The translations under genes were made by a program, and so were the position numbers. The notes under the pieces were generated by a model. It was given only the letters and a program-made list of their open reading frames with translations, was not told the origin of the DNA and did not search any database. A stretch of 22,131 nucleotides of DNA from Gammaproteobacteria bacterium (lineage in GTDB: Bacteria > Pseudomonadota > Gammaproteobacteria > Steroidobacterales > Steroidobacteraceae), in NCBI GenBank assembly GCA_003162555.1, contig PMNQ01000204.1:405-22535 (forward strand), in the 5' to 3' direction. Numbering within the stretch: position 1 is the stretch's first letter; every line of letters begins with the position of its first letter. Positions 1,598-22,131 of the stretch are shown piece after piece.

Positions 1598-1638
1598 TGA
1601 GCGGGAAGCATAGCGTCCGGCCCGGGCGGCGCCCATGA
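1597..1638 (+). other. 13-codon reading frame bridging the cytochrome c and aminotransferase genes
   Basis: This frame (MSGKHSVRPGRRP) starts with an ATG sharing its A with the cytochrome c stop (TGATG) and ends with a TGA overlapping the aminotransferase ATG (ATGA). It could let ribosomes reach the aminotransferase start by two rounds of termination and reinitiation. Whether it is translated is unknown, and no ribosome binding site of its own is required for coupling. Confidence 0.3.
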
Positions 1639-3002: not shown

Positions 3003-3006
3003 CCCC

Positions 3007-5037: not shown

Positions 5038-5041
5038 GCGG

Positions 5042-5431
5042 CTAGGTCGCGATCAGCTCCACGCGCTCGACATCGGGCGCGGCCTGGTTGTGCAATTCCG
5101 TGTTGAAGGACACGAGTACGAACGGGCGCGTGCCGGTGTTCTTGAATGCATGCGGCACACCGGGCGGGAACTGGAACCGCCACACCTCGCCCTCGGGCAC
5201 CAGCGCCTCGCGCGTCACCTCGCCATCGCGGTAGCGCACCAGCGCCTCGCCATATACGGCGGTGAGCTCAGTGCCGCGCAGGTGACGGTGGTTGCCGCGC
5301 ACCGCGCCCGGTTCGGTGATGACGGCATGGACGTTGCGCCAGCCGCTTAAGATCTGCGGCTCGAGCGGCTCGAACACCGCTCCGCGCGTGTCCGAGTGCA
5401 CCTTGATGCGGGTGATCGTGACTTTCTGCAT
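5042..5431 (-). CDS. Small cupin-domain protein
   Basis: The protein is 129 residues from the ATG whose complement is at 5429-5431. That start was chosen because a purine-rich GAGGGG ribosome binding site lies just upstream on this strand; a longer reading frame to 5506 adds 25 residues with no family resemblance and would run into the divergent promoter region. It has a single cupin barrel with the metal-ligand pattern H48, H50, E55 (GNHRHLRGTE) and H94 (PGVPHAF). The sequence resembles the dTDP-sugar ketoisomerase/3,5-epimerase-like cupins (GAVRGNHRH, LVSFN), but no sugar-nucleotide genes are nearby, so only the fold is safe. It is convergent with the molybdoenzyme (4 bases between stop codons) and divergent from the peptidase. 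Confidence 0.75.
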   Translation of the reverse strand: MQKVTITRIKVHSDTRGAVFEPLEPQILSGWRNVHAVITEPGAVRGNHRHLRGTELTAVYGEALVRYRDGEVTREALVPEGEVWRFQFPPGVPHAFKNTGTRPFVLVSFNTELHNQAAPDVERVELIAT

Positions 5432-5510
5432 CGCGCCCCTCGATGTTCTGCCTGCTGCAATTATCCGCGATTCTGGGCCACAATGGTGTACCTGAGGGAG
5501 GCACACGAAG
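5432..5510. promoter_or_regulatory. Divergent intergenic region between the cupin and the S9 peptidase
   Basis: These 79 bases must carry the starts of two opposite transcripts. On the plus strand a clear ribosome binding site, GGGAGG at 5496-5501, sits 9 bases before the peptidase ATG. CACAAT at 5479-5484 could serve as a poor -10 element with ctgcaa (5455-5460) 18 bases upstream, but both match the consensus weakly. No operator-like palindrome stands out. Confidence 0.35.
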
Positions 5511-7652: not shown

Positions 7653-7669
7653 GGCCCGCGCCGCCGGCT

Positions 7670-9040
7670 TCAGTTCGCGGGCTGCAGATTGCTGCGGTCC
7701 ACGCGCAGGATCGTGCGCAGCAGCACGTCGGCGCCGTTGGCGCAATCGGACCAGCGCGACAGTTCCTTCGGCGAGTGGCTGATGCCACCGATGCTCGGAA
7801 TGAAGATCATGCCCATCGGACCGAGCTTCGCGAGATTCTGCGCGTCATGACCCGCGCCGCTTGGCAGGTGCAGCGTCGTCAATCCAAGAGTCGCCGCTGC
7901 GGCTTCGATCTGCTTCTGAATGCGCACGTCGGCGAGTGCCGGGTCATCATGGATTGCGCGGACCATCGAGATTTCAGTGCCAGTCTCGCGGGCGATCTGC
8001 TGCAACCGTGCCGCCGTCTCTGCGCCCAGCCGGGCGATGGTTTCCGCTGACAGATCGCGAAATTCGACGCTGAGCAGCACTCGCCCCGGGATAACATTGG
8101 GCGCATTGGGGAACACCTGGAAGCGCCCGACGGTGCCCACCTGCCGGCCGGGTGCACGCGTGGCGATCTCGCGCACCGCCTCGACAACCCTGGCAGCCGT
8201 CAGCAGCGCATCGCGACGCTCGCCCATCGGCGTGGTGCCGGCGTGGTTTGCGAAGCCTTTCACCTCGACGTCGTACTCGTCGATGCTGACGATGCCGTCG
8301 ACGACGCCAACCGCAATGCCCGCCTTTTCGAGCACGCCACCCTGCTCGATGTGCAGCTCGAGGTAACAATGCAGCGAGTGCGGTGCGCGGCGCGCAAGCG
8401 CCAGGTGATCCGGATCACCACCGATCTTCAGCAGCCCGTCGCGCATGCGCACGCCACTGTAGAGGCGCTCGAGCGCCTCGGCAGGTATCGTCTCCACCGC
8501 CGCGCTGCTGCCGATCGGGCCGCCCTCTTCATTCGACCACAGCGTGACTTCCAGCGGGTGACGGGTGACGACATGGTGTTCCTGCAGCGCACGCACGACC
8601 TCGATGGCTGCCATCGACCCGACCTGGCCGTCGAAATTGCCGCCGCCCGGCACCGAATCGACATGCGAACCGATGACGATCGGTTTGAGCGCGGGATCGC
8701 TCCCGGCGCGCGTGCCGGTGATGTTCCCGGCCGCATCGATGTGCGGATCCAGGCCCGCATCGCGCATCAGGCCCATGGCGTAGGCACGGCCCGCCACGTC
8801 GGCATCGGAATACGCGACGCGGCTGACGCCATCGGCAAAACTGCCGCCGGCGGGGCGGCCAAAGGTGCTGAGCTGTTCCAGGGTGGCCTGGAGCCGCGCC
8901 GCATCGATGCGTGGTTCAGCCGTGGCGGCAGCATGTGCACTCGCAAATACGGTTCCACTCGGGGCGCTGGCCACTGCGATGCCGGCCAACAGGGCGAAAC
9001 AGCGGCGCCGATCGACGTGTCGAATAAATCCCGTGCTCAT
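7670..9040 (-). CDS. Tat-type secreted M20 amidohydrolase (N-carbamoyl-amino-acid hydrolase/allantoate amidohydrolase-like)
   Basis: The protein has 456 residues. The family's metal-binding residues are visible: H126 (GSHVDS), D137 (GGNFDGQVG), E171/E172 (SNEEGG), H230 (ELHIEQG) and H422 (GISHSP), together with the dimer-domain segment NHAGTTPMGERRDA (265-278). The family uses two metal ions to hydrolyse N-carbamoyl amino acids, allantoate or related ureido or amide compounds. Its ~40 extra N-terminal residues begin with DRRRCFALLAG and a hydrophobic run ending near SAHA, which looks like a twin-arginine signal, although the motif is not perfect (Cys between the arginines and Phe). This implies folding with metal in the cytoplasm and export. 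It is last in a minus-strand operon, its ATG overlapping the glycosyltransferase stop by 4 bases. No purine or pyrimidine catabolic genes are near, so the substrate is open. Confidence 0.85.
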   Translation of the reverse strand: MSTGFIRHVDRRRCFALLAGIAVASAPSGTVFASAHAAATAEPRIDAARLQATLEQLSTFGRPAGGSFADGVSRVAYSDADVAGRAYAMGLMRDAGLDPHIDAAGNITGTRAGSDPALKPIVIGSHVDSVPGGGNFDGQVGSMAAIEVVRALQEHHVVTRHPLEVTLWSNEEGGPIGSSAAVETIPAEALERLYSGVRMRDGLLKIGGDPDHLALARRAPHSLHCYLELHIEQGGVLEKAGIAVGVVDGIVSIDEYDVEVKGFANHAGTTPMGERRDALLTAARVVEAVREIATRAPGRQVGTVGRFQVFPNAPNVIPGRVLLSVEFRDLSAETIARLGAETAARLQQIARETGTEISMVRAIHDDPALADVRIQKQIEAAAATLGLTTLHLPSGAGHDAQNLAKLGPMGMIFIPSIGGISHSPKELSRWSDCANGADVLLRTILRVDRSNLQPAN

Positions 9041-10833
9041 TGATTGGTTCCAGAATTGCGTCGCCAGAGAAAATAGCCACGGCCGCCGGGACGTTCGACC
9101 CGCGCGCGCACTGAAAATCCAGCGGCGCTGAGCAGCGGCTCGTTGCCGACGGCGTTGGCGGCGACCGCGTCGCTGGCGACTGGATTGTCGCGGTCACCGC
9201 GCAGATAGGCGAGCCATTGCTCACGCGACCAGCTTCCAGGCGCGAGGCTGACAACCAGCGCATGTTCGGGCGGCGAGGTCGCGCCGTTATCAGCGTTGGC
9301 GCCAGCGGCGGCGATACTGCGCCAGCTTCCGGCCGGAAGATAAAGCTGCGCCCAGGCGAGCGTGGTCTCGTCCGGATTCCACAGCAGCAGCGGATCCGTG
9401 CCGGCGTTCCACGCCACGCGGTTAGCGAGCGATTCGAGATCCTGCGCGCGATTCACCGCGCTCCCCAGGCTCAGCAAGCCCAGCGACAGCAGCAGGCACC
9501 AGGCGAGCGCGAACTGCTGCAACCGCGCCGCGATGGGCTTGCGTGGGGTGCGCGGTGCTCCCGGAGCAATACAGATTCCCGCGCACCATGCGGCGACACC
9601 TGCCGCCGTGCATGAACTCAGCAGATACAGCGGCCAGGGCGCGCGCAACACCGACCATTGGAGCGCTGCGTTGACGCCCAGCACGACGATCGACACCAGC
9701 AGCAACAGCACAGCGGTGCCCGTCAGCACGCGGCGCGTGGCCGCAGTGTCCGCGGCCAGCCGCTCGATGGCGAGCGACATCAACAAGGCGAAACCGATCA
9801 TGCAGGGCGCGGCGTAGATGCTGCGCGCGGTCGTGGCGAGCGACAGCAACAGCAATCCCGGAAACGCGGCGCACACGCCAAAACGCCAGGCCGCGCGCCG
9901 CGCGCTTGCGCGGCGTGTGCCGCGCCAGGCCGCTTCGAGCGCGTACGCGGCCAGCAGTGTCCAGGGCAGCAGGTACAACGGCAGCTCCAGGAAATAGCGG
10001 CCCGGCGAGTTGTGGTGGCCACTGGCATAATCGAATTTCGCTTCCATCGCGATCGGCAGCGCGCGCCCGGTGAGATTGTTCCAGAACAGGATGCGCAGCA
10101 GGCGCGCGCCGTCGGGTTGCGCCGCGACCGCGCTCACCCACAGCGCGATGCAGGCCACCGGCAGCAGCGCGCAAGTCCAGAATTCCGCGCGCCACAGCTC
10201 GCGCCAACGCCGTTCCCAGGCGATGAAGCACAGGAATGCCAGCACCGGCACCAGCCAGGCAGCGAAATTCTTCGCGAAAAACGCCAGCGTGAGCCCGGCG
10301 TGCATGACGAGGTAACCACGCCAGCGCGCGCGGCGCGCAGGCGCGTCTTCGCCGCTGGCGCTCAATGCGTGGTACATGCCGGCCAGCGCCACGCAGACGC
10401 CCGCGAGCAGCAGCGCGTCGGTGTCGAGCCAGATCTGCACCTGGTACACCAGTCCGCTGGTGGCGAACAGCACGGCCCCGCACCAGGACGCGGCGCCCGC
10501 CTCCGCGCTGTCGCCGAGCAGACCACGCAGCAGCGCCAGCATGGCGAAAAAGGCGAGCAGCGCATAGACGAGTTGCGGCGCGCGCGCTGCTGCGGGATGT
10601 GCGCCCAGCGCCCGCATCGCCGCACCCGCGAGCCAATAGCTCAGCGGCGGCTTTTCCGCGAAGCTTGCGCCGTCAAGCGTGGGGAGCGGCAGCGCCTGAT
10701 GGCTGACCGATGCAGCCAGCGCCGCTTCGCGCGGCTCGTCTGGTGTCCAGTAGCCGCGCCCGAACATGCCCACGCACCACAGCAGCGCCAACGCCGCCAG
10801 TGGGACGAGCGCTTGCCGGTTGCGCAGGTTCAT
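9037..10833 (-). CDS. ArnT-like membrane glycosyltransferase (GT39/GT83, PMT fold)
   Basis: The protein has 598 residues and many hydrophobic segments. The first periplasmic loop carries the signature acidic pair in YWTPDEPREA (D32-E33), and AEKPPLSYWLAG follows, both typical of ArnT and other polyprenyl-phosphate-sugar transferases. These enzymes take a sugar from an undecaprenyl-phosphate donor and add it, on the periplasmic side, to lipid A, a glycolipid or a protein. No arnBCD genes lie nearby, so aminoarabinose specificity is not supported. The C-terminal ~120 residues look soluble. It overlaps the stop of the upstream transporter (10830-10833) and the start of the downstream amidohydrolase (9037-9040) by 4 bases each, so translation is probably coupled. 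Confidence 0.85.
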   Translation of the reverse strand: MNLRNRQALVPLAALALLWCVGMFGRGYWTPDEPREAALAASVSHQALPLPTLDGASFAEKPPLSYWLAGAAMRALGAHPAAARAPQLVYALLAFFAMLALLRGLLGDSAEAGAASWCGAVLFATSGLVYQVQIWLDTDALLLAGVCVALAGMYHALSASGEDAPARRARWRGYLVMHAGLTLAFFAKNFAAWLVPVLAFLCFIAWERRWRELWRAEFWTCALLPVACIALWVSAVAAQPDGARLLRILFWNNLTGRALPIAMEAKFDYASGHHNSPGRYFLELPLYLLPWTLLAAYALEAAWRGTRRASARRAAWRFGVCAAFPGLLLLSLATTARSIYAAPCMIGFALLMSLAIERLAADTAATRRVLTGTAVLLLLVSIVVLGVNAALQWSVLRAPWPLYLLSSCTAAGVAAWCAGICIAPGAPRTPRKPIAARLQQFALAWCLLLSLGLLSLGSAVNRAQDLESLANRVAWNAGTDPLLLWNPDETTLAWAQLYLPAGSWRSIAAAGANADNGATSPPEHALVVSLAPGSWSREQWLAYLRGDRDNPVASDAVAANAVGNEPLLSAAGFSVRARVERPGGRGYFLWRRNSGTNQ

Positions 10834-11753
10834 GACCGCGCAAGCTTAGCCGTTGCCGACGCCGGAATCACCGCTTCGGCCGCGGCGACCATGCGCACGC
10901 CGCCAATCACGAGTGCCGCGCCGAGCAGTTGCAGCGCTCCGAGCGCTTCGCCGAGCAGCAGCCATGCCATCAGCATGGTGATGGGCGGACCGAGCGATCC
11001 GATCATCGCAGTCGGCCCTGCGCCGAGCCGGCGGATCGCCTCCGACACCAGCCAGATCGGCAGCACGGTGGAAAACACCGCCATCGCCGCACTTAAGCCG
11101 TGCACCTGCCAGGGTTGTGCCAGCGCCAGTCCGGGCGGCCGCAGCAGCACGAACTGCAGCAACGCTGCCGCGCAGGCGACCATCGTGGCCCAGGCCGCGA
11201 CGCGCGTGGAGCCCAGCCGCGTGAGAATCCGCGCGGCGCCCAGCAGGTAGGCCGCGTAGCAGATGGCACTTGCGAACACGAGCGTGCCGCCGATGAGCAC
11301 GTTGCCGCTGCCGGCGCGCACGTCGTGCGTGACCACCAGCGCTACGCCCGCATAGCACAGCGCCAGCGCGATCAGTGTCGGCCGCGCTGGCGCGCGCCGC
11401 ACGCGCCAGGCGCCATAGAGCACCACAATGGTCGGATACACGAACAGGATCAACCGTTCGAGCGCGGCCGAGATATGGCGCAGTCCCAGGAAATCCAGGT
11501 AACTCGAGCCGTAGTAACCGAGCACTCCGAGCACCAGCAGCGCGCGCCAGTCCGACGGCGTGATCGGTTCAGCGGCGTTGCGCGCCGTGTACGCCATCAG
11601 CAGGAACAGCGGCAGCGAATACAGCATCCGCAGCGCCAGCAGCGTTTCGGGATCGACGCCGTAGCGATACGCGGCCTTGACCAGCACCGCCTTGAACGAG
11701 AAGCCAACGGCGCCGAGCAGGGCGCAGGCCAGTCCGATCGATTGCGGCCTCAC
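10830..11753 (-). CDS. EamA/DMT-family membrane transporter
   Basis: The protein has 307 residues with about ten hydrophobic segments and the duplicated EamA layout: GAVGFSFKAVLVKAAYRYGVDP at the front and TAMIGSLGPPITMLMAWLLLGEALGALQLLGAALVIGGV near the end. Family members export metabolites or amino acids, or take up small molecules; the substrate cannot be told. The start is GTG (complement at 11751-11753), one base after the stop of the DUF2909 gene, and its own stop overlaps the glycosyltransferase start. It is therefore the second gene of a four-gene minus-strand run. Next to an ArnT-like enzyme it could in principle move a lipid-linked sugar, since EmrE-like ArnE/F proteins do so, but it is of the ordinary EamA size and I would not claim that. 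Confidence 0.85.
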   Translation of the reverse strand: MRPQSIGLACALLGAVGFSFKAVLVKAAYRYGVDPETLLALRMLYSLPLFLLMAYTARNAAEPITPSDWRALLVLGVLGYYGSSYLDFLGLRHISAALERLILFVYPTIVVLYGAWRVRRAPARPTLIALALCYAGVALVVTHDVRAGSGNVLIGGTLVFASAICYAAYLLGAARILTRLGSTRVAAWATMVACAAALLQFVLLRPPGLALAQPWQVHGLSAAMAVFSTVLPIWLVSEAIRRLGAGPTAMIGSLGPPITMLMAWLLLGEALGALQLLGAALVIGGVRMVAAAEAVIPASATAKLARS

Positions 11754-11754
11754 T

Positions 11755-11967
11755 TCAGGGTTGGAGACCGTGCGGGCGGATCAGGCCGAACCGCCAGGCC
11801 AGCATCAGCAGCAGGAACAGCATTACCGACAGCACCACGCGCACCGTCAGCGAGTTCACGAGTTTTTTCGAGTCGCCGCGATCGGTCGCCAGGTGATAGA
11901 GCGCCACGCCCAGGCTCACGACGATGGCCACCAGCACGACGATCACGGCCAGCCTTATCCATTCCAT
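11755..11967 (-). CDS. DUF2909 small twin-transmembrane protein
   Basis: The protein has 70 residues with two hydrophobic helices (about 4-22 and 43-61) joined by the short polar loop HLATDRGDSKKLVNSLTVRV, which is the DUF2909 pattern. The start is the ATG with complement at 11965-11967. Longer reading frames over this stretch give charged, low-complexity text and are rejected. In many gammaproteobacteria this family sits between the gene for cytochrome oxidase subunit III and SURF1, so a role linked to oxidase assembly is suspected but unproven. Here it is on the opposite strand from SURF1 and heads an unrelated transporter/glycosyltransferase run. I see no ribosome binding site just upstream; TATACT at 11974-11979 (minus strand) is close enough to suggest a leaderless message. 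Confidence 0.8.
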   Translation of the reverse strand: MEWIRLAVIVVLVAIVVSLGVALYHLATDRGDSKKLVNSLTVRVVLSVMLFLLLMLAWRFGLIRPHGLQP

Positions 11968-12060
11968 GCTGCAAGTATAGGCCGGCGCCTGTACTCCGCG
12001 CCCACCCGGCGGCACAATGCCCGCCGCTTTTCGACGCCGGAGTACGCGCGTTTGCTGCGA
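11968..12060. promoter_or_regulatory. Divergent intergenic region between DUF2909 and SURF1
   Basis: These 93 bases separate two opposite gene sets. On the minus strand TATACT (complement of 11974-11979) is a good -10 hexamer, but no -35 is evident at the right spacing. On the plus strand CACAAT at 12013-12018 is a weak -10 candidate, and GGAG at 12039-12042 is a plausible ribosome binding site 9 bases before TTG 12052. Confidence 0.35.
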
Positions 12061-12828
12061 ATGGAATTGGGCAACCGGAGGCTTCGGGCCAGCGTCTGGA
12101 TGACGTCGCTGGCGATGGCAGGCGTGCTGCTGTTCGGGCAGCTCGGCCGCTGGCAGTGGCACCGCGCGGCGGAGAAGCGCGCGCTCGCGGCGGCTTTCGC
12201 CGCCAGCACGGCGGCCGCCGCCACCGAGCTTGGGACCCGCCCGATAGCGGCGCTTCCGCGCTACACGCTGCTGCGCGTGCGCGGCCGCTACGACGGCGCG
12301 CACCAGTTCCTGCTCGACAATATCATCCGCGACGGCGCGGTGGGCTATGAAGTACTGACGCCCCTCCAGCTCGAGGACGGCCGCATCCTGATGGTGAACC
12401 GCGGCTGGCTCCCGCTGCCGGGCGGCCGCCGCGAACCGCTACCGGATGTGGCGCTGCCGAGCGCGCAGGTTGAGGGTTCAGCGCCGATATCGGCGTCGGT
12501 GCCCGCCGAAATCAGCGGCCGGATCGATGAGCTGCCAGTCACCGGCATCAGCATGGGCCGCGCGCCGCCGGATATGGGGCCGTCCTGGCCGAAGCGCACC
12601 AGCTTTCCGACGGCTGCACAGCTCGGCGCGGCGCTTGGCCAGCGCATTGAACCCCGCGAGCTGTTGCTCGCCGCGGCCGAACCGATGGGCTATCGGCGCG
12701 ACTGGGAGCCTCGCGGCAACGGCTTCGGACCGTCGCGCCACGTGGCCTACGCGCTGCAGTGGTGGAGCTTCGGAGCCCTGACCCTGTTCCTTTATTTCTT
12801 CATGAACATCGAGCGGCGCAAACCATGA
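12061..12828 (+). CDS. SURF1 cytochrome oxidase assembly protein
   Basis: The protein has 255 residues, normal for bacterial SURF1. It has a transmembrane helix at each end (about 11-27 and 228-248) and a periplasmic domain between. Family landmarks are GRWQWHRAAEKRAL just after the first helix, RVRGRYDGAHQFLLDN, and VNRGWLPLPG. SURF1 helps insert heme a into subunit I of aa3-type oxidases. ATG 12061 is the first Met in the conserved region, but the only purine-rich site, GGAG at 12039-12042, is better placed for the in-frame TTG at 12052, which would add three residues. The gene begins a plus-strand assembly operon and overlaps the next gene by 4 bases. The oxidase subunit genes that usually precede it are absent. 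Confidence 0.9.
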   Translation: MELGNRRLRASVWMTSLAMAGVLLFGQLGRWQWHRAAEKRALAAAFAASTAAAATELGTRPIAALPRYTLLRVRGRYDGAHQFLLDNIIRDGAVGYEVLTPLQLEDGRILMVNRGWLPLPGGRREPLPDVALPSAQVEGSAPISASVPAEISGRIDELPVTGISMGRAPPDMGPSWPKRTSFPTAAQLGAALGQRIEPRELLLAAAEPMGYRRDWEPRGNGFGPSRHVAYALQWWSFGALTLFLYFFMNIERRKP

Positions 12829-13379
12829 ACGACCGATCGCAGCCAACTGTCCGCAATCGCAAACCCATCCTGATCCTGGTGGTGCTGTTTCTGGCGCCGC
12901 TGGCCGCCGCGTTCTGGCTGTACTACGGATCAACCTGGCGCCCCTCGCTGCATACCAACCACGGCGCACTGATCGCGCCGGTCTCGTTGCCCGGAATGGC
13001 GTCGGGCAAATGGACGCTGCTTGTGGTCGGCCAGGGCGAGTCCGGTTGCGATACCGGATGCCGCGAGACACTGGTCTACGCGCGCCAGACCTGGCTGTCG
13101 CTTGGCCAGCTCACCCCGCGGGTGCAGCGGGTGCTGTTGGCTGGCCCAGGGTGCTGCGACACGGGCTACCTGCAACGCGAACACGTCGGCCTGATCGCCC
13201 TGAACTCCGCCGGCCCGCAGGCCGCGCCGCTCCTGCAGCGCGTGCCCGACCCCAAGGAAGGGACTATCTTTGTCGTCGATCCCTTGGGCAATCTGATGAT
13301 GCGTTACGATGTGCGACAGGACCCCAAGGGCCTGCGCGAAGACCTCAAAAAACTGCTCGAGCTCTCCCACATCGGCTGA
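12825..13379 (+). CDS. Membrane-anchored Sco-like protein with CxxxC motif
   Basis: The protein has 184 residues with one N-terminal membrane helix (about 13-35) and a periplasmic thioredoxin-like domain. It has Cys75 and Cys79 in ESGCDTGCRET, matching the CxxxC copper site of Sco/SenC proteins, and a thioredoxin-fold ending GTIFVVDPLGNLMMRYD then a helix (DPKGLREDLKKLLEL). A gene of this size commonly lies between SURF1 and heme A synthase in proteobacteria and is often annotated only as a transmembrane or cytochrome oxidase-associated protein. By position and motif it probably takes part in copper delivery or thiol reduction during CuA or CuB assembly. A second pair, C110-C111 in GPGCCDTGY, partly echoes the first. 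The conserved copper-binding His of true Sco proteins is not evident at its usual place. The ATG overlaps the SURF1 stop. Confidence 0.75.
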   Translation: MNDRSQPTVRNRKPILILVVLFLAPLAAAFWLYYGSTWRPSLHTNHGALIAPVSLPGMASGKWTLLVVGQGESGCDTGCRETLVYARQTWLSLGQLTPRVQRVLLAGPGCCDTGYLQREHVGLIALNSAGPQAAPLLQRVPDPKEGTIFVVDPLGNLMMRYDVRQDPKGLREDLKKLLELSHIG

Positions 13380-13397
13380 CGCAAAACGACTTCAACG

Positions 13398-14363
13398 ATG
13401 CCCCGCGCCTCGCTCATCCGACCGCTCGCCGTTACGGCATTCGTGCTGTGTCTGATCGTCGTTGTGATGGGCGCATACGTGCGCCTTTCGGCCGCAGGAC
13501 TGGGCTGTCCGGACTGGCCCGGATGCTACGGCCACGTCACTCCCGCCGGCGCGATAGCGGCCGCTGAACCCTCCGGAGGAATGCTGGACGGGGCCACCGT
13601 CGATGCCGGCAAAGCCTGGAAGGAAATGGTCCATAGATACGCTGCAGCAACATTAGGCATTCTAATTCTCATTATTGCTGCACTGGCGATACAAACTCGC
13701 AAACTCAGGGTGGTCTCGCTCCCCTACGCCGCCATGCTGGTCGGGCTCGTCATCGCGCAGGGAATGCTGGGGATGCTGACGGTCACTGAACGGTTGAAGC
13801 CGGTCATCGTCACCGCTCATCTGCTGTTAGGTTTGACGACGTTATCTGCACTTTGGTGGATGGTTTTGACACTTGGCCGGCGGCAGGCCAGCGCCTGGCG
13901 CGGCAGCACCGCGTTCCTCGGTTCCAGCCTGCGGCTCACGCGCCAGCTCGCGCTGCTCGGATTGGTGGCATTGGTGCTGCAGCTGGCGCTCGGCGGCTGG
14001 ACCAGCAGCCACTACGCCGCGACTGCCTGTCCGGATTTTCCGAAGTGCCAGGACCAGTGGTTGCCCGGGATGCAGGGCGCCGTGGGCATCCATTTCGCGC
14101 ACCGGCTGGGCGCACTGTTCGCCGCCGCGATGCTGCTGCTGGCATCAGTCCGCGTACTGCGTTCACGGAGCGATCCGTTCGCACGCCGGGCCGCGCTCGC
14201 GGTGCTGGTAGCGCTGGTGCTGCAGCTGGCCATCGGCATCACCATGGTGCGAAGCGGATTTCCGCTCTGGCTCGCCACCGCCCATAGCGCGGGCGCGGCG
14301 TTGCTGCTGCTGGCAGTGGTGGCGCTGAACCGCTCGCTGCGCCCAGCCTGGAAAGCGTCTTGA
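13398..14363 (+). CDS. ctaA: Heme A synthase (COX15/CtaA)
   Basis: The protein has 321 residues with about eight membrane helices in two repeated halves. Histidines expected to bind the two hemes are seen in MVHRYAA (H79), TAHLLLG (H141), HFAHRLG (H232/H235) and TAHSAGA (H296). Two periplasmic cysteine pairs are present, C37/C43 in GCPDWPGC and C211/C217 in CPDFPKC. The enzyme oxidises the methyl group at C8 of heme O to the formyl group of heme A at the inner membrane, using the product of the next gene. It starts 18 bases after the Sco-like gene, and its stop overlaps the TTG start of ctaB. The presence of this gene implies an aa3-type oxidase elsewhere in the genome. Confidence 0.93.
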
Positions 14364-15289
14364 ACGCGCCGGCGGATGCCGTGCCGGCCGCTGCGCCAGA
14401 ACCCGGCAAGCGGCACGTGGCTGGCTGGCGGGATTACTTCGAACTCACCAAGCCGCGGGTGGTCTCGCTGATCGTGTTGACGGCGGTGGTCGGCGCGCTG
14501 CTGGCCACGCCCGGCCTGCCGCCACTCGATGCGCTACTGTATGGGAATCTGGGGATCGCCCTGGCGGCCGGTTCAGCCGCGGCCTTCAACCATGTGCTCG
14601 ACCGGCGCATCGACGCCCACATGGCGCGTACCCGCGGCCGCCCGCTCCCGACCGGCACGCTGAATCACCGCCAGGCGATTGCCTTCGCCATGGCGCTCGG
14701 TATCGCCTCGATGCTGGTGCTGGTGTTGCTGGTCAACACGCTGACCGCCGTGCTCACCTTCGCCTCGCTGATCGGCTACGCCGTGCTCTACACCGTGTGG
14801 CTCAAGCGCGCCACGCCGCAGAACATCGTCATCGGCGGCGCCGCTGGCGCCGCGCCGCCGGTGCTCGGCTGGGCGGCCGTCACCAATACCGTCGATCCGC
14901 ACGCGCTGCTGCTGTTCCTGATCATCTTCGCGTGGACGCCGCCGCACTTCTGGGCGCTCGCGATCGCGCGACGCAATGACTACGCCAAGGCCGAAATCCC
15001 GATGCTGCCGGTGACGCACGGCGTGGAATTCACGCGGCTCCATGTGCTGCTGTACACGGTGATTCTCGCGCTGGTCACGCTGCTTCCCTATGTCACCGGC
15101 ATGAGCGGCCTGATTTACCTGGCGGCGGCGCTGGTGCTGAACACGCGCTTCCTGGTGCACGCGGTGCGACTCAAGCTCACGCGGCGCGACGACCTGCCGA
15201 TGCGCGTGTTCCGCTTCTCGATCAGTTACCTGATGTGGCTGTTCCTGGCGCTGCTGGTCGACCACTACCTGCCGACGCAGGTGCTCTGA
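14360..15289 (+). CDS. ctaB: Protoheme IX farnesyltransferase (heme O synthase)
   Basis: The protein has 309 residues and is a UbiA-superfamily membrane prenyltransferase. The N-terminal [10 protein letters not shown] and the diphosphate-binding NHVLDRRID motif (N77, D81, D85) followed by [11 protein letters not shown] identify heme O synthase, which adds a farnesyl group to heme B. The later loop carrying [10 protein letters not shown] is also typical. The start is TTG at 14360, sharing bases with the ctaA stop (tTGA), so translation is probably coupled to ctaA; no other in-frame start gives the N-terminal KPR region without loss. Product heme O feeds ctaA. Also called cyoE in organisms with bo3 oxidase, but the pairing with ctaA and SURF1 favours the aa3 role. 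Confidence 0.95.
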
Positions 15290-15293
15290 TCTG

Positions 15294-15887
15294 ATGACGA
15301 CGCTCATCGGCTTGTCCGGAAGCCTGCGGCGCGGATCCTTCAACACAGCTTTGCTGCGCACGGCCGCGACGCTCATGCCGGCGGACGCAACGCTGCAGAT
15401 CCACACGCTGCACGACATTCCGCTCTATGACGCGGATCTCGAAGCGAGCGCGGGATTGCCCGAGCGCGTTGCCGCGCTGAAGGAAGCGATCGCTGCGGCG
15501 GACGGATTGCTGCTGGCCACTCCCGAGTACAACAACGGCATTCCAGGCGTGTTCAAGAACGGCATCGACTGGCTCTCGCGTCCCGCGAGCGACATCAAAC
15601 GTGTGTTCGCCGACAAGCCGATCGGGCTGATCGGCGCCTCGCCCGGCGGTTTCGGCACGATCCTTTCGCAGGCCGCCTGGCTGCCGGTGCTGCGCACGCT
15701 CGGCGCGCGTCACTGGTCGGGCAGTCGGCTGCTGGTCTCGCGCGCCGGGCAGGTATTCGACGAGAGCGGCGCGATGCGCGATGCGAAACTGCAGGAGCAG
15801 CTGCAGGTTTTTCTGCAGGGTTTTGTGGCCTATGTGCGCGAGGTCAGTTCCGCGCGCGAGTCGCGAGCCACGAACCAGCCAGGATGA
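15294..15887 (+). CDS. NAD(P)H-dependent FMN reductase (chromate/quinone reductase-like)
   Basis: The protein has 197 residues and a flavodoxin-like fold. GLSGSLRRGSFNTAL (6-20) is the FMN phosphate-binding loop, and TPEYNNGIPGVFKNGIDW (76-93) is the FMN-ring loop typical of the family, with PIGLIGASPGGFGT following. Members reduce FMN, quinones, azo dyes or metal ions with NAD(P)H in the cytoplasm; the physiological substrate is unclear. It begins 4 bases after ctaB, in the place where a true SCO gene often stands, so it is likely the last gene of the oxidase-assembly transcript. Its 3' end overlaps the 3' end of the opposite-strand transporter by 44 bases. Confidence 0.88.
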   Translation: MTTLIGLSGSLRRGSFNTALLRTAATLMPADATLQIHTLHDIPLYDADLEASAGLPERVAALKEAIAAADGLLLATPEYNNGIPGVFKNGIDWLSRPASDIKRVFADKPIGLIGASPGGFGTILSQAAWLPVLRTLGARHWSGSRLLVSRAGQVFDESGAMRDAKLQEQLQVFLQGFVAYVREVSSARESRATNQPG

Positions 15888-16704
15888 GCGCAAAGGCCAG
15901 GTAACCGCCCAATCCGAGCTGCTCATGCAGCACCAGTACGCCCAGAAGCGCGGCCACCGCCGGATTGATGTAGGTGATCACCGAGGCGCGCGCCGGCCCG
16001 GCATGGTTGACGAGATAGAACATCAGCAGCATCGCCACCGCGGTGCAGGCGAGCCCGAGGATTGCGATCGACGCCAGCGCGAGTGCCGAGGGCTGGTGTG
16101 TCGGGAACGTCATGAGCGCGGGGACCAGCAGCACGACGCTCGAAACCGCGAGGCTCGCGGCGATCGGCCCGAAGGAATCGAGCCCGCCCAGATGCGCTCG
16201 GATGATCAGCGGCCCAACCGCGTAGCAGATCGCGGCCAGCAGTATGCAGCCCGCGCCTGCCCAGCCAAACGGCCCGCTGATGCTGCCAAAGCCCAGCAGC
16301 GAGACCACGCCGAGGAACCCCAGCAACAGGCCGGCGAGCCGCCACGGCCCGAGCGGTTCGTGCAAGCCGAAGAAGCGCGAGATCACGCGCACGGTGAGCG
16401 GCACCGAGGCGATCAGGATGCCGGTCACCGAGGAGTCGATCCAGCGCTCGCCGACCGAGATCACCGTAAAAGGAATCACGAACTCGATCAGCCCGAAAGC
16501 GACGATGGGCAGTTTGTGCTCACCCAGTGCATGCAGCGCGCCACGACGCCACGCGATCGGCAGCATCACCAGCGCCGCGAGCGTGATGCGGCCCCAGGCC
16601 ACGACCCAGGGCGAGAGTTCCTGCACCGCGATCTTGATGAAGAAATACGGCACGCCCCAGATCACGCCGAGCGCGGCGAAAGCCATCCAGGCGCGCGCGC
16701 TCAT
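15844..16704 (-). CDS. EamA/DMT-family membrane transporter (second copy type)
   Basis: The protein has 286 residues, taken from the ATG whose complement is at 16702-16704. The upstream extension of the reading frame overlaps DUF3293 antisense and is Cys/Arg/Pro rich, so it is rejected, while a GAGG site precedes the chosen start. About ten hydrophobic segments and the two EamA halves are visible (FAALGVIWGVPYFFIKIAV at the start; ASVITYINPAVAALLGVLVL near the end). The second half carries the usual PxxA motif. It exports or imports a small metabolite; substrate unknown. It is not close in text to the transporter at 10830-11753, so the two are not a recent duplication. It follows the DUF3293 gene by 13 bases and ends inside the 3' end of the opposite FMN reductase. 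Confidence 0.87.
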   Translation of the reverse strand: MSARAWMAFAALGVIWGVPYFFIKIAVQELSPWVVAWGRITLAALVMLPIAWRRGALHALGEHKLPIVAFGLIEFVIPFTVISVGERWIDSSVTGILIASVPLTVRVISRFFGLHEPLGPWRLAGLLLGFLGVVSLLGFGSISGPFGWAGAGCILLAAICYAVGPLIIRAHLGGLDSFGPIAASLAVSSVVLLVPALMTFPTHQPSALALASIAILGLACTAVAMLLMFYLVNHAGPARASVITYINPAVAALLGVLVLHEQLGLGGYLAFALILAGSWLATRARN

Positions 16705-16717
16705 AGCAATGCCTCGT

Positions 16718-17170
16718 TCATCGCGATGGCTCCAGCCACACAAGGCGTGGCACGGCATCCGCCGCGGCGTGCAGGATGGCGTTCTGGCCGTAGTACCGGC
16801 CGTGCAGGCAAGCGGCGTCGAGCCCAAGGCCGGGCACGAACAGGCTCTCTTCCGCCTGCCACTCGTCGCGCGGGTCGCGACCGTATCCGGGCCAGCATTC
16901 AAGGCCCATTGCCGTCAGGCGCTGCCGCAATTCCTGGTTTGCGGTTGCATTCAGCGCGGCCGATTGCTGTGCGCTGCGCGGATTCCAGGCGGTCAGGAAA
17001 GCCGAGCAGCTCACGCCGCAGCGCTCGTGAATCGCCTGCAACGCGGGGCTCGCGATATCGACTCGCAACGTCAGCAACTCTCCACCGGGCTGTTGCACTT
17101 CGTAGTGCGTGCGGCGGTAGGCGGCATCGAGCGAGGTGTCCGATTCAATGTCCTGTTGCATGCTTCGCAT
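16718..17170 (-). CDS. DUF3293 domain protein
   Basis: The protein has 150 residues, and its length and text match the DUF3293 family: AFLTAWNPRS at 57-66, repeated Asn/Ala-Asn in the ALNATANQELRQRL helix, the GYGRDPRDEWQAEES segment and GRYYGQNAI at 124-132. The family is widespread in proteobacteria and its function is unknown; I do not assign one. The start is the ATG with complement at 17168-17170; a second Met three residues later (complement 17159-17161) is an equal candidate. It is divergent from glyoxalase II with only 21 bases between the start codons, so the two promoters must overlap or lie inside the neighbouring gene. It is followed by the EamA transporter, probably on the same transcript. 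Confidence 0.8.
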   Translation of the reverse strand: MRSMQQDIESDTSLDAAYRRTHYEVQQPGGELLTLRVDIASPALQAIHERCGVSCSAFLTAWNPRSAQQSAALNATANQELRQRLTAMGLECWPGYGRDPRDEWQAEESLFVPGLGLDAACLHGRYYGQNAILHAAADAVPRLVWLEPSR

Positions 17171-17191
17171 TATGACGTACGCTAGCTACCT

Positions 17192-17983
17192 ATGATCGTC
17201 GAACGCATCTGGGCAGCCAACGAGCTGCGCAATTTTCACTACGTAGTCGCCTGTGGCGAAACCGGAGACGCCCTCGTAGTAGATCCGCTCGACTGGCGTG
17301 CTTGTCTCGCGCGCGCGAACGAGCGCGGCTGGAAAATCACGCAGATCGTCAACACGCACGAACACAAGGATCACACCGCGGGCAACGCGGAGCTGGTCAA
17401 GGCCACCGGCGCCCGCGTGCTGGCGCATGCACGCGCGGCCAGCATGATCGGCGGCGTCGACCAGGGGCTTAACGCAGGCGATGTGATCCGCGTTGGACGG
17501 AGCGTGGAGCTCGAGTGCCTCGATACGCCCGGACACACGCTCGCGCACGTCTGCCTGCTGGCGCATGCGGAAGGACCGGCGCTGTTCTCGGGCGATACGC
17601 TGTTCAATGCCGGCGTCGGCAACTGTCGCGGCGGCGGCGACCCTGAACGGTTGTTCGAGACTTGCGCACAGCAGCTCGCGCGCCTGCCGACGAGCACGCG
17701 AATCTACCCGGGCCATGATTACCTGCTGAACAACCTGCGCTTCACGCGCCATGTCGAGGCCGGCAACGAGGCGGCCGCTGACTGGCTGGTGCGCTCGGAA
17801 AAAGTGCCGCCCGAAGAACAGGCGGTGCTGACGCTCGCGCAGGAATTAACGGTCAACAGTTTCTTCCGCTTGAGCGAACCGGGCCTGATCGATACGCTCC
17901 GCCAGCGCGTGCCCGCACTGGCGGCCAAGCCGACGCCGCGCGAGGTGTTCCTGGCGTTGCGCGAGCTGCGAAACAGCTGGTAA
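17192..17983 (+). CDS. gloB: Hydroxyacylglutathione hydrolase (glyoxalase II)
   Basis: The protein has 263 residues of the metallo-beta-lactamase fold. The two-metal site is complete: THEHKDH (H56, H58, D60, H61), H115 in TPGHTLAH, D135 in FSGDTLF, and H175 in YPGHDYLL. The C-terminal part (about 180-263) is the glyoxalase II helical domain that binds glutathione, with NPFFR-like VNSFFRLSEP and a terminal KPTPREVFLALRELRNSW. It hydrolyses S-lactoylglutathione to lactate and glutathione in methylglyoxal detoxification, in the cytoplasm. CRGGGDPERLF contains one more Gly than the CRGGDPERLF I would expect. It is divergent from the DUF3293 gene. Confidence 0.92.
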   Translation: MIVERIWAANELRNFHYVVACGETGDALVVDPLDWRACLARANERGWKITQIVNTHEHKDHTAGNAELVKATGARVLAHARAASMIGGVDQGLNAGDVIRVGRSVELECLDTPGHTLAHVCLLAHAEGPALFSGDTLFNAGVGNCRGGGDPERLFETCAQQLARLPTSTRIYPGHDYLLNNLRFTRHVEAGNEAAADWLVRSEKVPPEEQAVLTLAQELTVNSFFRLSEPGLIDTLRQRVPALAAKPTPREVFLALRELRNSW

Positions 17984-18098: not shown

Positions 18099-18100
18099 AT
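18079..18100 (+). repeat. Perfect 11-base tandem repeat spanning the uvrD start codon
   Basis: CCAAATCCGAT occurs at 18079-18089 and again at 18090-18100. The last two bases of the second copy are the A and T of the uvrD ATG. The repeat fills the place where a ribosome binding site would be expected. Confidence 0.9.
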
Positions 18101-21100
18101 GGATGTCTCCCCGATACTCAGCCCCCTGAACGACGCCCAGCGCGCCGCGGTCACCGCGCCGCTCGGGGCGACGCTGGTGCTGGCCGGAGCGGGCAGCGGC
18201 AAGACCCGGGTGCTGATCCATCGCATCGCCTGGCTGATCCAGGCCGAGGGCGCGACGCCGCACGGGATCCTCGCCGTCACCTTTACCAACAAGGCGGCGG
18301 CGGAAATGCGTGCGCGCGTCGAAGCGCTGCTCGGCACTTCCGGCGGCGCCATGTGGCTCGGCACTTTCCATGGCCTCGCGCATCGCCTGCTGCGCCTGCA
18401 CTGGCGCGACGCGGGTCTGCCGCAGAGCTTCCAGATCCTCGACAGCGAGGATCAGCTGCGGCTCATCAAGAAGGTCGTGAAGGCGCTCGAACTCGACGAC
18501 ACCCGCTTCGTGCCGCGCGAAGTGCAGTACTTCATCAACAAGCACAAGGACGAAGGCCGGCGCCCGGCGCAACTCAAGGACGGCGGCGATCCGACCGAGC
18601 GCACGCTGATCCGGTTGTACGTCGAATACGAACAGGTCTGCGCGCGGCAGGGTGCGGTCGATTTCGCGGAGCTGCTGCTGCGCGCGTTCGAACTGTGGCG
18701 CGACAATCCGGAATTGCTGCGCCATTACCGCGCGCGTTTCCAGCACGTGCTGGTCGATGAGTTCCAGGACACGAACTCGATCCAGTACGCGTGGATTCGG
18801 TTGCTGGTCGGCAGCACCGGCTTTCCGTTCGTTGTTGGAGACGACGATCAATGCCTTGCGGCAGGCACAGCGGTAACGATGGCCGACCGTTCGAGAAAAC
18901 CCATCGAAGCGGTTCTTCCGGGCGAGCGGGTACTGTCCAGTTACGGCGCGGGCGACCTCCGAGCGGCAACCGTGATGGAGCGATTCGCGCGCCACCGCAC
19001 CGGCAGGATGATTTGCCTGCACATGGCTTCCGGTGCCGTCATCAAGAGCACGCCCGACCATACGCATTTTGCTGGATATGTTCTGGGCGAGACACCGCAG
19101 ACTTACTTCCTGTACCTGATGCACAAGCAGGGAGTCGGATATCGCCTCGGAACGTCGCAGGTCTACACAGCGGGTCAGGCTCGACCTACAGTCGGCTTCA
19201 AGCAACGCGCGTTGCAGGAGCACGCGGACGCCGCGTGGATCATCAGCACGCACGCCAGTGAAAATGAAGCGCGACTGGACGAGATGCTGACCTCGCTGCG
19301 ATATGGAATACCCACGCTGCCGTTTGTAGCCCGCAAGGGCAAAGGCACCAATGGCTTGGTGCATGATCCGCGCTACATAGGCCGGATCTTCAGTTCTCTG
19401 AACACGACTGATGCGGCGCTGCGCTTGCTGGAAGATTCGGAACTGGACCCGGATCGCCCGCATCACACACCCCAGGCCCGCAATTCGAACCGCCGCAATA
19501 TCGTGATTACCCTGTGCGGCGATCGCCGCGGCGGCAATCCCATGCATCGGATCTCCGTCGTTGGTATCGACGCGTCTGACCGAAAGCTGCTGGAGGGAAT
19601 CGGCCTGAGCGTGCGGGTTGCCAAGAAGGCACACAAGAGCTGGCGATTCGAGACGGTGCGCAGCGACTTCGGTGAGCTGATGTTGATCGCCAGGCAGATA
19701 CGCGACGCGCTTGGCGGACGCTATGTGTTGCAGGGCCACCTGCTCGATCGCTCGCTACCGTTTATCGCCGCTGCTGCAATCCGACCGGGTATGGTTATGG
19801 CCACGGAACAGGCGTCATTCGACGTCGTCGAGCGCGTCAAGCACGAAGATTACGCCGCCGAAGTCTACGATCTCAATATCGAGCGCACGCACAATTTCGT
19901 CGCCAACGGTGTCATTACACACAATTCGATATACCGATGGCGAGGCGCACGCGTCGAGAACCTGCAGAAATTCCGCAGCGATTTTCCGCAGGCGCAGCTA
20001 TTCAAGCTGGAACAGAACTACCGCTCGAGCGCGGCGATCCTCGAGGCTGCGAATGCGCTGATCGCCAACAACTCCGCGCGCCTCGGCAAGGAGCTGTGGA
20101 CCAGCGGCGCGCGCGGCGAACCGGTGCGCGTCTACTGCGCCTACAACGAGCGCGACGAGGCGGAGTTTGTGCTCGGGCGCATTCAGCAGTGGATCGCCGG
20201 CGGCGGCCTGCGGCGCGAGTGCGCGATCCTGTATCGCTCGAACGCGCAGTCGCGCGTGTTTGAAGAGGCGCTGATCCAGGCGCGCATACCGTACCGTGTT
20301 TACGGCGGCTTGAGGTTCTTCGAGCGCGCCGAGATCAAGGACGCGCTCGCATATATCCGCCTCATCGCCAACCGCGATGACGATGCTTCGTTCGAGCGAG
20401 TCGTCAACCTGCCGGTGCGTGGCATCGGCGCGCGCACGCTCGACCTGTTGCGCGAGGCCGCGAAGGGCGCGGGGAGTTCGCTGTGGCGCGCCGCGGGCGC
20501 GCTGCTTGCACCATCGCCGGTAGATGGGGCCACTGGCGGGCGCGGCGCGGCGGCACTGCACGGATTCCTCGCGCTGATCGAGCGGCTGGGACGCGACATC
20601 GAAGGCATGCCGCTGCACGAGCAGGTCGATCACGTGATCAACAACAGCGGCCTGATCGAACATTTCCGCAAGGACAAGGCCGACCGCGGCGAAGCGCGCA
20701 TCGAGAACCTCGCCGAGCTCGTGAGCGCCGCGCGCGGCTACGAGCCCGAGGGTGAAGATCTGCCGCCGCTGCAGAGTTTCCTGGCGCACGCGGTGCTCGA
20801 GTCCGGCGAGACGCAGGGCAGCGAGTGGGACGACTGCGTGCAGATGATGACGCTGCACACGGCGAAGGGTCTCGAGTTCCCAGTGGTTTTCCTGGCTGGC
20901 ATGGAAGACGGGTTGTTCCCGCACCAGCGCTCGATCAACGAACTCGCCAGCCTCGAAGAGGAACGGCGGCTGTGCTACGTGGGCATCACGCGTGCCATGC
21001 GCCAGCTTTACCTCTCCTACGCCGAGCAGCGCCGGCTGCACGGCGTCGACAGCTACAACGTCGCCTCGCGTTTCATCCAGGAATTGCCGGCTGGGCTCCT

Positions 21101-21383
21101 CGAAGAGGTGCGGCCGCGCATCCAGCTCGCCCGTCACGGCCTGTCCGCGCCAGGCGTTGGACGCCGCGAGGGCGTTGGCGATGGCGCCGGCATGTTCCGC
21201 AATCCCATTGAGACCACACCGACCGGCATGCGGCTCGGCAGCCGGGTGCGTCATGGCAAATTCGGCGAGGGCGTGGTGCTGAATCTGGAAGGCCAGGGAC
21301 CGCACGCCCGCGTCCATGTTAATTTCGAACAGCAGGGCGCCAAATGGCTGATGCTGAGCGTCGCCCGGCTGGAGCCAGTGTGA
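18099..21383 (+). CDS. uvrD: DNA helicase II UvrD, interrupted in frame by an intein
   Basis: The precursor has 1094 residues; without the intein it is 736, normal for UvrD. The start MDVS followed by LNDAQRAAV (Q motif, 10-18) matches the enterobacterial protein. Superfamily 1 motifs are in order: GAGSGKT (30-36), TFTNKAAAEM (61-70), DEFQDTN (220-226), VVGDDDQ (245-251) and, after the intein, SIYRWRGA (610-617), LEQNYRSS (637-644), TLHTAKGLEF (918-927) and VGITRA (961-966). The last ~50 residues are the small Tudor-like C-terminal domain. UvrD unwinds DNA 3'-5' in nucleotide excision and mismatch repair. The intein splits motif III, which contacts ATP and DNA, so the precursor should lack helicase activity before splicing. 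trkA follows by 10 bases. PcrA or Rep could be confused with it, but the length and N-terminus favour UvrD. Confidence 0.95.
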   Translation: MDVSPILSPLNDAQRAAVTAPLGATLVLAGAGSGKTRVLIHRIAWLIQAEGATPHGILAVTFTNKAAAEMRARVEALLGTSGGAMWLGTFHGLAHRLLRLHWRDAGLPQSFQILDSEDQLRLIKKVVKALELDDTRFVPREVQYFINKHKDEGRRPAQLKDGGDPTERTLIRLYVEYEQVCARQGAVDFAELLLRAFELWRDNPELLRHYRARFQHVLVDEFQDTNSIQYAWIRLLVGSTGFPFVVGDDDQCLAAGTAVTMADRSRKPIEAVLPGERVLSSYGAGDLRAATVMERFARHRTGRMICLHMASGAVIKSTPDHTHFAGYVLGETPQTYFLYLMHKQGVGYRLGTSQVYTAGQARPTVGFKQRALQEHADAAWIISTHASENEARLDEMLTSLRYGIPTLPFVARKGKGTNGLVHDPRYIGRIFSSLNTTDAALRLLEDSELDPDRPHHTPQARNSNRRNIVITLCGDRRGGNPMHRISVVGIDASDRKLLEGIGLSVRVAKKAHKSWRFETVRSDFGELMLIARQIRDALGGRYVLQGHLLDRSLPFIAAAAIRPGMVMATEQASFDVVERVKHEDYAAEVYDLNIERTHNFVANGVITHNSIYRWRGARVENLQKFRSDFPQAQLFKLEQNYRSSAAILEAANALIANNSARLGKELWTSGARGEPVRVYCAYNERDEAEFVLGRIQQWIAGGGLRRECAILYRSNAQSRVFEEALIQARIPYRVYGGLRFFERAEIKDALAYIRLIANRDDDASFERVVNLPVRGIGARTLDLLREAAKGAGSSLWRAAGALLAPSPVDGATGGRGAAALHGFLALIERLGRDIEGMPLHEQVDHVINNSGLIEHFRKDKADRGEARIENLAELVSAARGYEPEGEDLPPLQSFLAHAVLESGETQGSEWDDCVQMMTLHTAKGLEFPVVFLAGMEDGLFPHQRSINELASLEEERRLCYVGITRAMRQLYLSYAEQRRLHGVDSYNVASRFIQELPAGLLEEVRPRIQLARHGLSAPGVGRREGVGDGAGMFRNPIETTPTGMRLGSRVRHGKFGEGVVLNLEGQGPHARVHVNFEQQGAKWLMLSVARLEPV
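18852..19925 (+). mobile_element. Intein in UvrD motif III (358 residues, splicing-competent by sequence)
   Basis: This is a protein-splicing element translated within uvrD, precursor residues 252-609. Block A is CLAAGTAVTM beginning with Cys252; PIEAVLPGERVLS follows. Block B is STPDHTHF (T318, H321). Blocks F and G are YDLNIERTHNFVANG (590-604, H598) then VITHN ending H608-N609. The first residue after it is Ser610, a valid +1 nucleophile, so this reads as a class 1 intein. Removal rejoins GDDDQ to SIYRWRGA, restoring helicase motif III. At 358 residues it is far larger than a mini-intein (~130-150), leaving ~220 residues (about 345-570) for an inserted domain. That region shows SLRYGIPTLPF, NIVITLCGDRRGG and SWRFET but no clear LAGLIDADG, HNH or GIY-YIG motif. 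From memory, inteins with similar central text occur in other bacterial UvrD/PcrA proteins; that needs a search. Confidence 0.95.
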
Positions 21384-21393
21384 TGGTGCAACG

Positions 21394-22131
21394 ATGAAGA
21401 TCCTGATTCTGGGCGCCGGCCAGGTGGGCCGCACCGCCGCGCAGAGCCTGGCGGGCGAACCCGCCAACGAAGTTACAGTGATTGACGTCAATGAACAGGT
21501 GCTGCGCGACCTGCAGGACCGGATCGACATCCGCGCCGTGGCCGGCAACGCCTCCTACCCCTCGGTGCTCGAATCCGCGGGCATCGCCGACACCGATATT
21601 CTGATCGCACTGACCAATAGCGACGAGGTCAACATCGTCGCCTGCCAGATCGCGCAGCTCCTGTACCGCACGCCGACCCGTATCGCGCGCATCCGCGCCG
21701 CCGAGTACACCTCGCGCCCGCAGCTGTTCGCCGAGGGCGGTCTCGCGGTCGATGTGTGGATCAGCCCCGAAGAACTGGTCACGGATTACATCGCGCACCT
21801 GCTCTCAAATCCCGGCGCGCTGCAGGTATTGGATTTCGCCGACGGCCGTGTGCAACTCGCCGGCGTGCGTGCACGCCCAGAGGGCCTGCTGGTTGGCAAA
21901 CCGTTGCGCACGTTGCGCGAGCACCTGCCCGAGACCGACATCCGCGTCGCGGCGATCTATCGCGATGGGCGCCTGCTGCCGACGGCCGGTGATACGGTGA
22001 TCGCCGAGGGCGATGAGATCTTCTTCGTGGCCGCGCGCGATGATGTCACCAAGATGCTGGCGGAACTGCGCAAGCGTCTGCCGAAGGTGCGCAAGCTGGT
22101 GATCGCCGGCGCCGGCAACATCGGCCTGCGG
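21394..22131 (+). CDS. trkA: Trk potassium uptake regulatory protein TrkA (N-terminal part)
   Basis: The first 246 residues are present and the gene runs off the window; complete TrkA has about 458. The N-terminus is a dinucleotide-binding domain with GAGQVG at 7-12 and the ribose-binding acid D31 in VTVIDVNE, followed by AGNASYPSVLESAGIADTDILIALTNSDEVN. Residues ~140-225 are the first TrkA-C ligand domain (LLVGKPLRTL to GDEIFFVAARDDV). A second nucleotide-binding domain begins at LVIAGAGNIGLR (235-246), showing the tandem two-module TrkA layout. TrkA is a cytoplasmic peripheral subunit that binds NAD(H) and gates the TrkH/TrkG potassium transporter. The start is ATG 21394; it lies 10 bases after uvrD and is linked to it by a 4-codon reading frame with exact stop/start overlaps. 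Confidence 0.93.
   Translation, partial: MKILILGAGQVGRTAAQSLAGEPANEVTVIDVNEQVLRDLQDRIDIRAVAGNASYPSVLESAGIADTDILIALTNSDEVNIVACQIAQLLYRTPTRIARIRAAEYTSRPQLFAEGGLAVDVWISPEELVTDYIAHLLSNPGALQVLDFADGRVQLAGVRARPEGLLVGKPLRTLREHLPETDIRVAAIYRDGRLLPTAGDTVIAEGDEIFFVAARDDVTKMLAELRKRLPKVRKLVIAGAGNIGLR

Follow-up and report, generated by a model that had tools for sequence, protein, structure and literature searches.

What is the 358-residue segment that interrupts a DNA repair helicase in the genome of a gammaproteobacterium, and how could it have come to lie there? The question is raised by a stretch of 22,131 nucleotides (the window; positions 405 to 22,535 of contig PMNQ01000204.1, assembly GCA_003162555.1, Steroidobacteraceae), in which the uvrD gene forms one open frame of 1094 amino acids (18099-21383, + strand, as are all parts of the gene given below), uninterrupted across the UvrD exteins and an intein. 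The intein occupies frame residues 252-609 (18852-19925; Cys1-Asn358), starts with CLAAGT after GDDDQ and finishes with THNFVANGVITHN ahead of SIYRWRGA. The answer that we favour, with moderate confidence, is a mobile intein of class 1 type whose homing would depend on a GIY-YIG-like nuclease in a new location. Its basis is a single frame, a complete Hint domain with its splicing residues and an insertion site that is fixed across several phyla.

The N-extein (UvrD residues 1-251; 18099-18851; Pfam PF00580) ends in GDDDQ, and the C-extein (19926-21383) runs from Ser+1 of SIYRWRGA through the UvrD C-terminal and tudor domains to the stop codon, Pfam UvrD domains being found on both sides of the intein. 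Without the intein, uvrD has 736 residues (2211 bases including the stop), and the UvrD parts passed the NCBIfam model NF008743 (DNA helicase II; 1100.1 bits, cut-off 965) and scored 1050.6 with TIGR01075 (uvrD), below that model's own cut-off of 1144.45. A search with profile hidden Markov models for the Hint domain, proposed as a check in the preliminary description, matched Pfam PF14890 (Intein_splicing) at 53.3, above the cut-off of 35.8, and NCBIfam TIGR01443 (intein_Cterm) in the C-terminal region. The Hint fold, also present in the structural model, consists of an N-terminal part with Cys1 and block B (residues 1-75; TPDH, Thr67/His70; 18852-19076) and a C-terminal part (residues 300-358; 19749-19925) that contains Asp340 and His347 in block F, followed by His357 and Asn358 in block G; the Cys1 nucleophile, the T-x-x-H of block B and the His-Asn of block G followed by Ser+1 assign it to class 1. 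The preliminary description had reported a complete intein in a continuous frame, with a Cys start and a His-Asn end, and was correct in its coordinates and residues; its expected sizes of about 736 residues for UvrD and about 358 for the intein agree with the computed 736 and 358.

The splicing residues are kept beyond the window as well. The intein was compared in 79 rows, from the 80 best of 153 relatives, whose loci were found by a scan with two patterns, one containing T67 and H70 and the two together T67, H70, E123, D126 and W129; the parse required the first Cys, the final His-Asn and a +1 residue, and every one of the 80 loci that was readable to both ends passed it. C1, T67, H70, D340, H347, H357 and N358 were identical in 79/79 inteins, although the constancy of C1, T67, H70, H357 and N358 is partly by construction because the scan pattern or the parse required them, which is not the case for D340 and H347. 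The +1 residue, Ser in the window, was Ser in 68 and Cys in 10 of 78 relatives. The junction was identical in 78 of the 80 relatives and the other two were cut by contig ends; records sharing it include some whose titles do not mention a metagenome-assembled genome (Hydrocarboniphaga effusa AP103, Methylohalomonas lacus and Geothrix fermentans DSM 14018). The site between GDDDQ and SIY is what we take to be helicase motif III, and the segment is a complete intein of class 1 type in UvrD at a conserved helicase motif. Since the motif is conserved, the precursor would, judging from the sequence, very probably have to splice to give normal UvrD. The Hint domain would excise itself after translation and join both UvrD halves; the splicing steps are the acyl shift at Cys1, the transfer to Ser+1 and the cyclisation of Asn358.

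The unusual part of the intein is the insert that separates the two Hint parts (residues 76-299; 19077-19748; no Pfam family), which, by sequence and model, follows block B and precedes the next strand of the Hint fold. The insert measures 224-240 amino acids and the usual nuclease site holds 6-8 residues, in 79/79 inteins. The Mtu RecA and Pho RadA inteins share the Hint fold, the splicing residues and the block order with the window intein, but in the Mtu RecA intein the nuclease occupies the usual site further on, and Pho RadA has only six residues from the block B histidine region to the strand LQWVPAAEVKPGDVVV, compared with 224 to 240 between the matching points here. According to a 2019 paper, all intein nucleases sit at one conserved site, C35 (PMC6801210); the present insert, a putative nuclease, lies outside it. 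An intein was also seen in a dCTP deaminase-like frame, named by eye, of the genus relative G004 (L013, 1267-3060, - strand); it looks of the usual build, with block B followed by GWRALADLRPGDRIA and then a long middle part, and the genus therefore holds more than one kind of intein.

A GIY-YIG domain spans about 100 amino acids with three strands and three helices, and its GIY and YIG motifs precede first an Arg and later a Glu (PMC1564403). In the model, intein residues 85-158 (19104-19325) follow as strand 85-92, strand 96-105, helix 115-122, strand 127-134 and helix 137-151, and the insert modelled alone keeps the same order of secondary structure (predicted local distance difference test, pLDDT, 88.4; predicted template modelling score, pTM, 0.75). 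The counterparts of GIY and YIG are x-Y-L-M and x-R-(L/V/I)-G, in which Tyr88 and Gly100 are present in 79/79 and Arg98 replaces the second Tyr; Arg119 on predicted helix 115-122 and Glu144 on predicted helix 137-151 are candidate catalytic residues by their order alone. Save for this Arg in place of the second Tyr, the module matches GIY-YIG well in order and place, and we infer from the model and the conservation that residues 85-158 are, on balance, a GIY-YIG-like module. The GIY-YIG nucleases I-TevI, the UvrC N-terminal domain and T5orf172/MUG113 share this arrangement, both in their secondary structure elements and in the succession of Tyr, Gly, Arg and Glu, and the K-I-G form in T5orf172 loci resembles the R-L-G here, although none of them gave a significant sequence match and the Tyr of their second motif is Arg in the intein. 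Tyr88, Arg98, Gly100, Arg119, Glu123, Trp129, Glu144 and Pro154 were identical in 79/79; Glu123 and Trp129 owe this partly to selection because both lie in the pattern used to find the loci, and Tyr88, Arg98, Gly100, Arg119, Glu144 and Pro154 do not. Furthermore, Tyr88, Arg98, Gly100, Arg119, Trp129 and Glu144 are also present in the inteins of phages SPO1 and phi92, and in 9 of 10 genus pairs the module had the lowest nonsynonymous divergence (dN) of five intein segments.

The module is followed in the model by two helices and then by an alpha/beta part. The helical stretch (residues 166-212; 19347-19487) contains helices 173-182 and 185-195 and conserved LL and PHH, and the alpha/beta stretch (residues 213-299; 19488-19748) is the proposed DNA-binding part. 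The 224-residue insert behind block B could act as a homing endonuclease, in which the GIY-YIG-like module (Tyr88, Arg98/Gly100, Arg119, Glu144) would be catalytic and the helical and alpha/beta part would recognise DNA. Such a nuclease would cleave uvrD genes that lack the intein, at the GDDDQ|SIY codons, and the element would spread when the cut is repaired from an intein-bearing copy.

The distribution of the intein among relatives bears on this proposed mobility. It was found in 5 of 15 genus genomes, and the other 10 have an uninterrupted GDDDQSIYR, uvrD being matched in all 15; among 60 relatives including its own genome there were six full-length matches, with a seventh genome giving a short match only. 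Full-length matches were found in four of 369 sampled genomes of the class, again including its own, and a fifth genome gave a match of 24 residues. The intein had been called unusual for a gammaproteobacterium, which holds across the class at 4/369 and does not hold within the genus at 5/15, nor in view of a review that lists inteins in the UvrD/Rep/PcrA helicases (PMC5874633). In the UvrD tree, intein presence changed state at least five times, and four relatives that lack the intein, one of them 95% identical, share a clade (99/99) with the window uvrD. Additionally, silent divergence was higher in the intein than in the host gene in all four computed pairs; between the window and G001, synonymous divergence (dS) was 1.48 in the intein and 0.75 in the host (fourfold sites 86/155 versus 127/345). 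Higher silent divergence of the intein fits a separate acquisition.

Several results weigh against a GIY-YIG nuclease, or against recent movement of the intein. None of the 79 members matched GIY-YIG or any nuclease family in Pfam, and the insert profile found nothing convincing among PDB chains (best E 0.65). In hhalign, the insert parts (81 rows) and the module supplemented by phage and plasmid sequences (41 culled rows) were aligned to UvrC, small GIY-YIG and T5orf172 alignments, with 17 UvrD windows as decoys; insert and module scored at most 17.4, below the best decoy with UvrC (21.6) and with T5orf172 (23.3), while the best of the 17 reached 16.4 with small GIY-YIG and 20.9 with all (decoy means 11-13). 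As decoys outscore the insert, sequence comparison lends GIY-YIG no support. Arg replaces Tyr as the second residue of the YIG motif. The VIA-align list is devoid of GIY-YIG rows; however, it covers mainly insert residues 133-220, the second half, and is therefore no test of the fold of the first half. T67, H70, E123, D126 and W129 appear conserved partly through the pattern-based selection. Among relatives beyond the 79 rows, P0061 has Gln at Glu144 and the module of P0076, P0091 and P0103 has large gaps; such changed or gapped modules would fit the decay of a homing nuclease. With regard to movement, intein labels on the genus tree were neither more clustered nor more scattered than chance, and since 77 and 93 of 500 shuffles needed as few changes, they are near random on the tree. 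The intein has a GC content at third codon positions of 0.71, compared with 0.84 in the host, and its weaker codon bias may add to the silent divergence. No co-conversion tract or donor DNA stood out beside the site. Finally, the phylum-level intein and host trees largely agree, and long-range jumps are therefore rare or old, the relatives of the UvrD intein carrying eight phylum labels.

Alternatively, the insert could be a stabilising or accessory domain that is no longer a nuclease, the intein persisting by descent with occasional loss. Agreement of the trees at phylum level, a module that is gapped in some relatives and an insert that has no sequence link to any nuclease all favour this explanation, which survives best among the alternatives and which we still consider unlikely, because divergence is lower in the module than elsewhere in the intein in 9/10 pairs, the candidate catalytic residues are kept in 79/79 and the window intein sits among close intein-free relatives. 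Less probable still is an intein of the ordinary kind with a LAGLIDADG homing endonuclease, intact or worn down, that has diverged too far to be recognised by Pfam. LAGLIDADG is the commonest in inteins of the four homing endonuclease families, GIY-YIG included (PMC7765530). A LAGLIDADG match in Pfam was absent in 79/79 members. A search of the genome of the window with the LAGLIDADG family PF14528 was likewise empty, while 5 of 14 control genomes matched. That the intein interrupts a conserved motif of a repair helicase could also suggest a host splicing switch that, in line with the preliminary description, ties UvrD activity and repair to temperature or redox; this idea gained no support and appears very unlikely, as 10 of the 15 genus genomes do without the intein and a selfish element accounts for the same facts. 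An assembly chimera or pseudogene, conceivable in a draft assembly (72.27% complete, 279 contigs), was rejected as practically negligible since the insert and junction recur in 78/80 other records and the frame is open with low dN/dS.

Related inteins also occur in phages and plasmids. At E 1e-5 the intein matched 66 phage records, and in 38 of these the match spanned at least 80% of the query. Helicase inteins of the Bacillus phages SPO1 (gp34.33) and CampHawk and of Escherichia phage phi92 and its kin lie likewise in UvrD-like helicases, with 24-27% identity among the matches listed over at least 84% of the query; shorter matches reach higher identity, as for SPO1 (35% over 26% of the query), whose intein has 275 amino acids and lacks most of the alpha/beta stretch. 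These phage helicase inteins have the module behind block B in the form VYLM..RVG..R..W..E. By eye, the module follows block B not only in SPO1 and phi92 but also in the inteins of a Streptococcus phage methylase and of Nostoc and Thermobispora plasmids, and the intein family is therefore wide. A more tentative extension, which may well prove wrong, is that bacterial UvrD, phage helicases and a phage methylase share a broad intein family whose homing relies on a GIY-YIG-type nuclease, built into the Hint domain directly behind block B. Separately, the helicase frame of Klebsiella phage KP13-16 (L017, 72-3668, + strand) seemingly holds two inteins, since residues 249-292 match LAGLIDADG_3 and a GIY-YIG-like module follows later in the frame, and a Providencia plasmid (L020, about 2001-2675, + strand) encodes, without a listed gene, a relative of the UvrD intein whose module, judged by eye, closely resembles the one in the Streptococcus phage methylase intein. 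Relatives of the insert that stand alone were sought by scoring the 8000 candidates with most shared words; of 118 matches at E 0.01 none was labelled nuclease, those bearing Pfam domains carry UvrD, AAA or Hint, and many have no domain. A scan of viral contigs with the single sequence gave no match, and PHROGs, repeats and RNA families gave nothing informative.

The intein itself is ordinary, and the novelty probably lies in the position and the probable type of the nuclease. The UvrD/Rep/PcrA inteins likewise interrupt a superfamily 1 helicase of DNA repair, but PMC5874633 puts helicase inteins at the P-loop, in contrast to the GDDDQ|SIY junction. According to PMC1564403, inteins were not yet known to contain GIY-YIG enzymes in 2006, and the phrase 'GIY-YIG intein' was not found in a full-text literature search, most subscription journals lying outside its reach. 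The AceL NrdHF split intein is also linked to a GIY-YIG endonuclease, but there a separate gene lies between the split halves (PMC7891396), whereas here the putative nuclease is part of the intein chain, inside the Hint domain. If the assignment is true, a GIY-YIG enzyme would reside inside a contiguous intein and the Hint fold would have a second nuclease insertion point, contrary to the one-site rule. In this regard, the single nuclease site has been called puzzling, since random invasion should yield inteins with nucleases elsewhere, and a clash with the host protein has been proposed to forbid other sites (PMC6801210); the present intein family would be a natural case for testing the host-clash idea of that paper. 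Furthermore, if inteins do contain a new type of nuclease, a new class of site-specific cutters would become available, and the intein-bearing and intein-free relatives are ready pairs for homing tests.

Around uvrD, the ten neighbouring frames scanned (563-17983 and 21394-22131) are host-like, and no mobile-element gene was seen among the ten, which resemble genes for cytochrome c, aminotransferase, molybdopterin oxidoreductase, prolyl oligopeptidase, M20 peptidase, PMT, CtaA, UbiA, glyoxalase II and TrkA. ARAGORN placed a tRNA-Trp at 13887-13977 (+ strand) within the CtaA/COX15-like gene (13398-14363), which is probably a false call.
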